Source: Longimicrobium sp. (lineage in GTDB: Bacteria > Gemmatimonadota > Gemmatimonadetes > Longimicrobiales > Longimicrobiaceae). Taken from it: DNA of 64,000 bases. The translations under genes were made by a program, and so were the position numbers. Positions within the stretch are counted from its first letter, which is position 1; each line of letters begins with the position of its first letter. Below are positions 32,008 to 60,326 of this stretch, in pieces. Where the stretch lies: assembly GCF_035474595.1 (NCBI RefSeq), contig NZ_DATIND010000061.1, forward strand, positions 1 to 64,000, given 5' to 3'. The notes beneath the pieces were generated by a model, which had not been told where the DNA came from, did not search any database, and saw only the letters and a list, made by a program, of their open reading frames with translations.

Positions 32008-32066
32008 GATCTCACGCGGAGAAGCAGGGCAGCGGAGGTGTTCGTCCGCTGCCCTGCTTCTCCGCG
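32008..32066. terminator. Bidirectional terminator-like 22-bp hairpin (GATCTCACGCGGAG palindrome, copy 3)
   Basis: Stem 32015-32036 pairs perfectly with 32045-32066 (22 bp, CGCGGAGAAGCAGGGC at the base, 8-base loop). It lies between the converging GNAT and peptide genes and carries the GATCTCACGCGGAG start seen in two other copies. Confidence 0.8.
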
Positions 32067-32088
32067 TATGTCCCGTCCGTTCAGCGGG

Positions 32089-32310
32089 TCACACGGTGCA
32101 TTGGGCCGTGCACTGGTAGCACACCGGATACCCGGTGTCGCAGCTCGTGCCGCCGCAGGTGCGCGGGTACCCGCAGCTGTACTGCACCGAGGTGGGACAG
32201 CCCGGGCCCGAGACCTCGTTGGCCAGCACGGTGCCGTCCGCCTTCACCGCCGCTTCCAGCTCGAAGGGCTCCACCGAGAGCGCTTCCGGATCCAGCCGCA
32301 GCTTCTTCAT
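32089..32310 (-). CDS. Short Cys-rich peptide 1 (RiPP precursor-like)
   Basis: 73 residues. Leader MKKLRLDPEALSVEPFE, a GTV break near residue 26, then a core with seven Cys. The core centre is CGYPRTCGGTSCDTGYPVC with CYQC-like ending. GGAG lies 8 bases before the ATG. Leader and core are nearly identical in the three genes upstream. No modification enzyme is in the window, so ring formation, if any, would be by enzymes elsewhere. It could instead be a disulfide or metal-binding peptide. Confidence 0.8.
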   Translation of the reverse strand: MKKLRLDPEALSVEPFELEAAVKADGTVLANEVSGPGCPTSVQYSCGYPRTCGGTSCDTGYPVCYQCTAQCTV

Positions 32311-32410
32311 GGCTTTTCTCCTGTTTGCAGGGCCGTTCGGGCGCAGGCGTTCGCACCCGGATCGATCAGAACGCACCTGGTGGACACTGCCGGATGCGCC
32401 CCTGTGCCGC

Positions 32411-32635
32411 TCAGTCGATGGGCGGGCACTGGCGGCACACCGGATACCCCGAGTCGCAGCTCGTTCCGCCACAGGTGGGCGGATCGCCACAGCTGTCCTC
32501 GGCGGCCGTCCCGCAGTGGGTTTGCGAGAAGTCGTTGCCCCGCACCGTGCCGTTCGCCTCCCCCGCCCATTCCAGCTCGAAACGCTCGACCGAAAGCTCT
32601 TCCACGTCCAGCCGCAGCTTCTTCATCGGATTCAT
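32411..32635 (-). CDS. Short Cys-rich peptide 2 (RiPP precursor-like)
   Basis: 74 residues (MNPMKKLRLDVEELSVERFE leader, six Cys). The core is CGDPPTCGGTSCDSGYPVC, then RQC. GGAGG with four bases before ATG 32635 favours the MNP start, though MKKL at 32626 is the family start. It is the most diverged of the four, with E-for-P and W changes in the leader tail. Confidence 0.78.
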   Translation of the reverse strand: MNPMKKLRLDVEELSVERFELEWAGEANGTVRGNDFSQTHCGTAAEDSCGDPPTCGGTSCDSGYPVCRQCPPID

Positions 32636-32679
32636 CGGTCCTCCACGATCGGGAGTTGCCGCCGTTGGTCCGCCCATCG

Positions 32680-32889
32680 TCACCCGGCGCAGAAGCGGCA
32701 GAGAGGATAGCCCGTGGGGCAGCTGGTTCCGCCGCACGTGAAGGGGTAGCCGCAGCTCGCGTCCGGCCCGGTGCAGTTCCTCGGCGTCGAGGCGTCGGCG
32801 CCCATCACCGTGCCGCTCTCCTCCTTCGCCGCTTCCACCTCGAAGGGCTCCACCGAGAGCGCTTCCGGATCCAGCCGCAGCTTCTTCAT
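32680..32889 (-). CDS. Short Cys-rich peptide 3 (RiPP precursor-like)
   Basis: 69 residues, leader MKKLRLDPEALSVEPFE, then SGTVMGADASTPRNCTGPD and core CGYPFTCGGTSCPTGYPLC. Six Cys. GGAGGGAAC precedes the ATG. It shares the whole middle part with peptide 4, so the two are recent duplicates. Confidence 0.8.
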   Translation of the reverse strand: MKKLRLDPEALSVEPFEVEAAKEESGTVMGADASTPRNCTGPDASCGYPFTCGGTSCPTGYPLCRFCAG

Positions 32890-32932
32890 CGTTCCCTCCA
32901 CGTTGGTGATCCGCCGGCCAGCCGCGAGCATG

Positions 32933-33154
32933 CTACTCGCAGACGCGGGCGGTGCACTGGTAGCAGAGCGGGTAGCCCGAGTCGCAGCTCGTTCCGCCGC
33001 AGGTGTAGGGGTAGCCGCAGCTTACGTCGGGCCCGGTGCAGTTCCTGGGCGACGACGCGTCGGCGCCCATCACGGTGCCACTCTCCGCCGCCGCCGCTTC
33101 CACCTCGAAGGGCTCCACCGAGAGCTCGTCCGGATCCAGCCGAAGCTTTTTCAT
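32933..33154 (-). CDS. Short Cys-rich peptide 4 (RiPP precursor-like)
   Basis: 73 residues, leader MKKLRLDPDELSVEPFE, then SGTVMGADASSPRNCTGPD and core CGYPYTCGGTSCDSGYPLC. Seven Cys. GGAGGAAGAAGG precedes the ATG. It is the first gene of the four; the upstream 33228-33275 stretch is markedly AT-rich for this genome and is the likely promoter region. Confidence 0.8.
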   Translation of the reverse strand: MKKLRLDPDELSVEPFEVEAAAAESGTVMGADASSPRNCTGPDVSCGYPYTCGGTSCDSGYPLCYQCTARVCE

Positions 33155-36244: not shown

Positions 36245-36294
36245 GCCGGCGGGCGCGCCAAACGGGAATGGGTCGGGATGGCCCGCGGGGAAAG

Positions 36295-36341
36295 GCGAAT
36301 GAATTCGCGGCAACAACGGCCCGAAGTCCGCCTTCGCGGAC
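36295..36341 (+). repeat. Two-hairpin repeat, copy m
   Basis: GCGAA-TGAA-TTCGC, linker GGCAACAACGGCCCGAA, GTCCGC-CTTC-GCGGAC. All stems perfect. Confidence 0.88.
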
Positions 36342-36416
36342 TCCCGCCCAAACCTGGTGGCGCTCCGTCAGAGGTTTTCGCCACCGCAGACAGCCCGTCA
36401 GGGGACGGCCTCCTGC

Positions 36417-41756: not shown

Positions 41757-41832
41757 GGCGCTCCCTCGCTCCCGGAGTGTACCCGAGCCGATGGAGCCGG
41801 GCCGAGCTCGGGAAGGCTGAGGCTGGGGAGGG

Positions 41833-41879
41833 CGAATGAATTCGCTGCAACAACTGCCCGAAGTCCGCCTTCGCGGACT
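41833..41879 (+). repeat. Two-hairpin repeat, copy n
   Basis: GCGAA-TGAA-TTCGC then linker and GTCCGC-CTTC-GCGGAC; one of two copies in the 300-base gap between DUF58 and MoxR genes. Confidence 0.85.
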
Positions 41880-41985
41880 CCCTCTCCGCCATTCGCGCGG
41901 TGAGGCATGTGCTTCCGCTCACCCGCCGTTCCAACCGGGCCGGATGCGCCCGCGCTGGCCGAGTCGCCCCGATGCCGGATTTCGA

Positions 41986-42032
41986 GTCCGCGAAGGCGGA
42001 CTTCGGGCCGTTGTTGCCGCGGATTCATCCGC
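41986..42032 (-). repeat. Two-hairpin repeat, copy o
   Basis: Minus-strand reading GCGGA-TGAA-TCCGC, linker, GTCCGC-CTTC-GCGGAC. A fourth stem variant with the second-stem pair G-C and inner pair A-T. Confidence 0.85.
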
Positions 42033-42057
42033 CGGGGCACGGGTCCTGGCTTTGCGC

Positions 42058-60152: not shown

Positions 60153-60326
60153 ATGCGGAAGATGAAGCTGGATCCCGAGGCGCTGGTCGTGGACTCGTTC
60201 GCGTCCGTCGGGAGCACGGAGACCAGCGGGATTGGGGAAGGCAACGCGGTGGACGGCGGGGGGACGGTCCGCACCACCTGCGTGGGGAGCTGCGTCGACA
60301 CCGGAAGTCCCTGCGTAGCCTGCTGA
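60153..60326 (+). CDS. Lone leader-type short peptide (RiPP precursor-like)
   Basis: 57 residues. MRKMKLDPEALVVDSF matches the leader of the four peptides near 33 kb, followed by a GGGTV break and a core TTCVGSCVDTGSPCVAC with four Cys. It lacks the CGGTSC centre. GGAG lies 11 bases before the ATG. A 16-bp hairpin with a T-rich tail follows 21 bases after the stop, so it is a single-gene transcript. Confidence 0.75.
   Translation: MRKMKLDPEALVVDSFASVGSTETSGIGEGNAVDGGGTVRTTCVGSCVDTGSPCVAC

Follow-up and report, generated by a model that had tools for sequence, protein, structure and literature searches.

The four-peptide array and its surroundings

We have analyzed a stretch of 64,000 nucleotides of a Longimicrobium sp. 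draft genome (the window), in which the minus strand carries four short tandem genes (positions 32089-33154; Table 1). Each is preceded by its own purine-rich ribosome site and codes for a peptide made of a leader, common to the four, and a Cys-rich core, as the initial annotation had proposed. The fixed core motif given there, C-G-x-P-x-T-C-G-G-T-S-C-x-[ST]-G-Y-P-[LV]-C, fits all four peptides and is part of the longer pattern S-C-G-x-P-x-T-C-G-G-T-S-C-x-[ST]-G-Y-P-[LV]-C-x-x-C. The peptide lengths stated at that time (69-74 residues) hold at their upper end only if peptide 3 starts at 32635; counted from the MKK start the range is 69-73. The ATG 9 bases upstream, closer to its GGAGG, is probably the real start of this gene. 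Similarly, the leader described as nearly identical is indeed shared by the four, but that of the third peptide had to be corrected to MKKLRLDVEELSVERFE. In the alignment 36 of the 73 columns are invariant among the four peptides, and the invariant positions of the leader read M-K-K-L-R-L-D...L-S-V-E-x-F-E...G-T-V. The composition is the one of class I lanthipeptides, with Ser/Thr and Cys in the core and a leader largely free of Cys. None of the four peptides gave a Pfam or NCBIfam match, the core included.

The window also contains a solitary fifth peptide, whose leader is a divergent version of the one shared by the four. Next to peptide 4 there is a long inverted repeat that is a candidate transcription end. 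The hairpin has a stem of about 24 pairs (-57.7 kcal/mol, z -11.2) without a T run, and an 83% identical stretch is present at the syntenic position in another genome of the genus (G008). It was missed by the terminator scan, which demands a T run, and promoter and terminator consensus scans found nothing. Besides, the window carries three copies of a dispersed repeat, which appears in both orientations in the loci of relatives.

Table 1. Position and description of the features found in the window, with the syntenic orthologues of the peptide genes.
Feature	Position	Strand	Description	Syntenic orthologue
Precursor peptide 1	32933-33154	minus	73 aa; leader up to GTV at residue 28, then Cys-rich core with CGYPYTCGGTSCDSGYPLC	L105:9685-9903
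Precursor peptide 2	32680-32889	minus	69 aa	L105:9430-9639
Precursor peptide 3	32411-32635	minus	71 aa if started at MKK (32626), 74 aa with the ATG further upstream (32635)	
Precursor peptide 4	32089-32310	minus	73 aa	L105:9967-10194
Lone fifth peptide	60153-60326	plus	MRKMKLDPEALVVDSFASV...GTVRTTCVGSCVDTGSPCVAC; leader HMM i-E 3.6e-6	
Inverted repeat	32011-32067	none	long, near-perfect; between convergent GNAT gene and peptide 4	
Dispersed repeat (~50 bases)	~36294-36342, 41830-41879, 41985-42033			

Conservation and selection

A three-gene version of the array, syntenic with the window and including the neighboring UvrD-like and GNAT genes, was detected on contig C163 of G008, which belongs to another species of the same genus. 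Three more copies of the window-type gene are located at unrelated sites in G008 and G001. A scan of the named genomes with the four window peptides found no relative. The exact core motif has two additional DNA matches in the own genome, on contigs C71 and C86, neither of which is a leader peptide.

The synonymous-site analysis suggested in the initial annotation was carried out over 10 homologues. The mean pN/pS was 0.24 for the CGYP...C block, 0.61 for the whole core and 0.50 for the leader. Between syntenic pairs the dN of the block was 0.02-0.08 against dS values of 0.2-0.66 (dN/dS about 0.04-0.2). With pN far below pS and a low dN relative to dS, these values indicate that the core motif is kept by purifying selection. 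The preservation of the ORFs with pN far below pS, together with the syntenic copy in another species, also indicates that the array is not a product of chance.

Between peptides 1 and 4 the leaders differ less at synonymous sites (0.14) than the cores do (0.48), as if the leaders had been homogenized by gene conversion while the cores diverged. Some cores are repetitive internally. In a precursor of G008 (contig C103, L106:9473-9739) a CDSGYPVCYxC unit is present twice within the core, and in one of G000 (contig C119, L075:9534-9821) a QCGGVxTCGGGCQVS-like unit is present three times, suggesting from the sequences that the cores are modular.

A genome-wide set of precursors with one leader

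The profile built from the four peptides retrieved 149 matches in their own genome (6.57 Mb), nearly all of which share the leader and not the core. A leader HMM applied to the retrieved stretches gave 180 hits, 172 of them with a Met start, over 56 contigs, and zero hits against the reversed sequences. Under strict conditions (Met start, i-E < 1e-3) there are at least 169 precursors, a lower bound that refers to the retrieved stretches of a draft genome with 3.95% estimated contamination. All have at least two Cys, and all the cores are distinct and less than 90% similar. The four genes of the window are a small part of a genome-wide precursor set.

Cys accounts for 15.0% of the residues in the cores and for 0.15% of those in the leaders (residues 1-28), and 444 of the 1053 core Cys are preceded by Ser or Thr, compared to the 19% expected (p about 4e-68). 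A Shine-Dalgarno-like 4-mer was found upstream of 156 of 168 precursor starts, versus 32% of control ATGs. The precursors are grouped in about 100 clusters, 75 of which are single genes, and only 6 of the 169 are on contigs with class I LanB/LanC, the other 163 being on contigs without class I LanB or LanC. The genes around the clusters were compared in search of a shared neighbor; those that recurred were paralogs of a generic kind (e.g., histidine kinases, ABC ATPases), and none was a candidate for a local modifying enzyme.

The leader consensus is KL-x-L-x4-L-x-V-[ED]-[SP]-F ... G-T-V, ending in GTV-x-[GA]. The likeness to other Gemmatimonadota leaders mentioned in the initial annotation was right. 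To classify the leader we used the NCBIfam model of the pinensin family lanthipeptide leader (NF038180, curated cut-off 24 bits). The four window peptides did not match it even at E = 1, while among ten paralogs of the own genome that were scanned one was above the cut-off (27.2 bits) and seven matched below it. In place of the VESF of most paralogs, the window leaders read VEPF or VERF. Since the four belong to the same paralog family as the peptides that match NF038180 but failed the test themselves, we refer to them as pinensin-like and not as members of the family.

Candidate modification enzymes

A domain search of the contig that contains the window found no match to LanB, the LanB elimination domain, LanC-like proteins or C39 peptidases, in agreement with the earlier statement that enzymes are missing locally. 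The suggestion to look for a lanthionine synthetase elsewhere in the genome proved fruitful. Contig C23 holds an operon, all on one strand, in which a LanB glutamylation gene (PF04738), present with its end only, is found together with LanB elimination as a gene of its own (PF14028) and with LanC (PF05147). Six leader precursors belong to the same operon, as do an ABC transporter and an HlyD protein. Another LanB glutamylation gene (PF04738), 82.5% identical in DNA to the C23 copy over the overlap, is located at the end of contig C4; in this draft genome the gene is truncated by the contig end in both copies. Thus, the LanB and LanC that characterize class I lanthipeptides are both present in the genome. 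Precursors of class I are usually clustered with LanB/LanC, although this is not strictly required. Here the six C23 precursors, and the leader genes of Ignavibacteria described below, are in the same cluster as LanB/LanC, and the window genes are not.

The cyclase has kept the zinc ligands. The motifs W-C-H-G (C313) and L-C-H-G (C360, H361) are invariant in eight orthologues and align with their counterparts in LicM2 and LANCL1, and the best NCBIfam match of the protein is a LanM model. The ABC protein of the operon has no C39 domain among its Pfam matches. Two C39 genes are found elsewhere in the genome, on contigs C11 and C64, and each of these contigs also holds one leader peptide.

Other lanthipeptide synthetases of the genome are LanM-like (contigs C25 and C136) and RamC-like (C87). 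On G000 contig C136 two LanM precursors (L133:3617-4231) adjoin a complete LanM; their leader contains EELRV[AV]IGG and their cores are nearly identical, ending in CCDGTKVCCC plus a short tail. Near distant LanB/LanC operons of G006 and G008 we found precursors (L176:14000-14242 and L180:10825-11097) with cores made mostly of SxC/TxC repeats (CSGCSGCSSCSGCTSC).

The C23 LanC has 683 residues and is about 230 longer than the cyclase domain, with a C-terminus (L088:13085-13831) that is also present in the orthologues. In the structure predicted for a homologue (mean pLDDT 88) this extension contains a helical part and, after it, two strands and three helices. Foldseek matched it to TglHI (8hi7 and 8hci; 229-271 columns, E 2e-4 to 9e-4, in a table that does not state the aligned residues), and residues 571-672 gave sub-threshold Pfam matches to NGO1945_C and PqqD. 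With a sequence profile of the C-terminal region, no TglI and no significant solved relative were found. TglI and NGO1945 are partner proteins of MNIO enzymes; NGO1945 combines DUF2063 with an RRE domain (PMC12452194). The C-terminal ~230 residues of LanC are predicted to resemble these proteins, with the difference that in the C23 LanC the module is fused to a lanthionine cyclase. From the predicted structure the extension is likely to be a leader-binding module. A pinensin-type LanC with an extension whose predicted fold is TglI-like (DUF2063-RRE type) would be an unusual fusion.

Co-occurrence of leader and enzymes across genomes

We have compared the distribution of the leader and the enzymes in two sets of genomes. 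In the first, with 61 genomes, orthologues of the C23 operon and its LanC (LanC identity of at least 51%) were found in exactly the 8 genomes with at least 7 leader hits and in 0 of the 53 others. Another two genomes of this set lack a leader array, and their LanB/LanC are more distant (LanC 31-34%). Fisher's test of leader against any LanB gave 1.5e-8 for the 61 genomes and 2e-4 within the family, values uncorrected for shared ancestry. In the second set, 249 genomes of the phylum, the leader was present in 7, all among the 14 with PF14028 (p = 3e-10), and it was found in 7 of the 8 genomes with a free-standing LanB elimination ORF (7e-13), again uncorrected for shared ancestry. The association is also physical in some genomes outside the family. 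The leader gene and the elimination gene are separated by 172 bases in G194 and by 2 kb in G192, and in Melioribacter roseus and Ignavibacteriales MAGs leader genes flank or directly trail the same LanC. Genomes that have LanC domains but no class I operon (e.g., G003, G004, and G005) showed at most one weak leader hit and no arrays. The leader tracks LanB/LanC and not LanM, and the combination of Nif11 or double-Gly leaders with class II enzymes does not describe this family.

Class I precursors, probably modified in trans

The idea put forward in the initial annotation, i.e., RiPP precursors with a lanthipeptide-like leader that depend on enzymes from elsewhere, is favored by the leader family, the C23 operon and the co-occurrence, all of them read from genome sequences. 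We consider it probable that the four window genes code for class I (LanB/LanC), pinensin-like lanthipeptide precursors, and that one enzyme set would act in trans on at least 169 of them. The data favor the LanB/LanC class (class I) rather than LanM. Against this interpretation count that the window four have no enzyme nearby, that they do not match NF038180 and that they carry VEPF or VERF instead of VESF.

Dehydration of Ser/Thr through glutamyl-tRNA is established for class I LanB. In the pathway that we propose the leader would be bound by the split dehydratase (LanB glutamylation plus the separate LanB elimination protein) and the LanC cyclase, of which the complete set appears once, on C23, possibly with extra leader recognition by the LanC extension. 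Ser and Thr of the core would be dehydrated via glutamyl-tRNA, and LanC would join the dehydrated residues to Cys, generating thioether rings. Cleavage would probably occur near G-T-V-x-[GA], and export could plausibly proceed through the ABC transporter and HlyD protein of the C23 operon. The approximately 100 small clusters without enzymes, that of the window included, would share the single C23 set in trans. As for the products, an antimicrobial or signaling role is a guess.

The fact that only 6 of the 169 precursors are on class I LanB/LanC contigs might mean that the enzymes serve just the six operon precursors and a few others, the dispersed genes (including the window four) being decaying or silent copies, and prochlorosin-like repertoires without known function appear in the literature (PMC10783134). 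We find this unlikely. None of the 169 ORFs is disrupted, no two cores are the same and nearly all the genes have a ribosome site, and the mean pN/pS of 0.24 and the low dN/dS between syntenic copies in the CGYP...C block are not expected of decay.

The chemistry could also differ from LanB/LanC ring formation, with thiopeptide-like reactions after the dehydration or with a YcaO or radical SAM enzyme acting in trans. LanB is split as in thiopeptides, and its elimination part matches TIGR03891, which is thiopeptide-type; for the glutamylation part the closest solved structure is 6ec7 (a lantibiotic dehydratase), with a weaker match to 9g04 (thiopeptide-type). However, every such operon has a LanC with intact zinc ligands, a split LanB is also the known architecture of the pinensins (PMC7268733), and the match to the pyridine synthase model was far below its cut-off, so that we give this possibility little credit.

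The nearly fixed spacing of the core Cys, ending in C-x2-C, is what might be seen in small secreted or metal-binding proteins folded by disulfides or zinc, unmodified and with the "leader" belonging to the fold. This seems improbable, as there is no Pfam match, the structure predicted from the four peptides is unfolded (mean pLDDT 46, weak evidence at the given alignment depth), and the leader, which is common to 169 peptides whose cores are unrelated, follows LanB/LanC in its distribution over the genomes. Finally, the genome has LanM-like genes (C25, C136) and a RamC-like synthetase (C87), and one leader peptide is located ~4.5 kb from the C25 LanM, but there is very little chance that the peptides are substrates of class II (LanM) or of class III/IV. 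The LanM and class III enzymes were discarded as modifiers by the distribution (at most one weak leader hit in the LanC-domain genomes without the class I operon) and by the unrelated double-Gly leader of the two precursors adjacent to the C136 LanM.

Comparison with pinensins and prochlorosins

The pinensin family combines a split LanB with a LanM-like LanC (PMC7268733; Mohr 2015 cited there). The system described here is similar in the leader type (the paralogs of the own genome match NF038180), in the split LanB and in a LanC that resembles LanM cyclase domains. It differs in the ~170 scattered precursors, nearly all without nearby enzymes, in a core without Pfam or NCBIfam match, and in the window leaders, which are missed by NF038180.

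Scattered precursors that depend on one promiscuous enzyme have been described in class II, with 29 precursors for ProcM and 79 for SyncM (PMC10783134). The prochlorosins and synechococsins have in common with our case one enzyme set, a conserved leader, highly varied cores and the mixture of scattered single genes and tandem groups, and the 169 precursors in about 100 clusters reproduce the prochlorosin-type pattern of many scattered precursors with one leader and varied cores. While those are cyanobacterial systems with class II LanM and Nif11-type double-Gly leaders, the one of Gemmatimonadota is class I, with a split LanB/LanC and a pinensin-like leader, and a single genome has at least 169 of its precursors. 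For the prochlorosins and synechococsins it has been demonstrated that unlinked precursors are modified, and for the Gemmatimonadota set this is predicted. We lean slightly toward a class I counterpart of the prochlorosins, in which one split LanB/LanC set, with a cyclase that carries a fused leader-binding module similar to the MNIO partners, would modify the ~170 scattered precursors.

A search of literature mostly outside the subscription journals found no paper on such a class I system or on these Gemmatimonadota arrays, and the prochlorosin-like arrangement is larger than the reported ones that we found (29 and 79 precursors). If our interpretation is true, this would be a larger natural lanthipeptide library than those, and the microbe may make an unusually large collection of ring-shaped peptides. 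Systems with one enzyme and many substrates are known for the LanM of picocyanobacteria. The class I system, from a phylum of which very few isolates exist, has roughly double the number of precursors and would provide a second independent case to study the origin and purpose of these libraries, and it could supply peptide engineering with new, tolerant LanB/LanC enzymes. Mining that starts from biosynthetic clusters would overlook almost the whole set, as 163 of the 169 precursors lie on contigs that carry neither class I LanB nor LanC.
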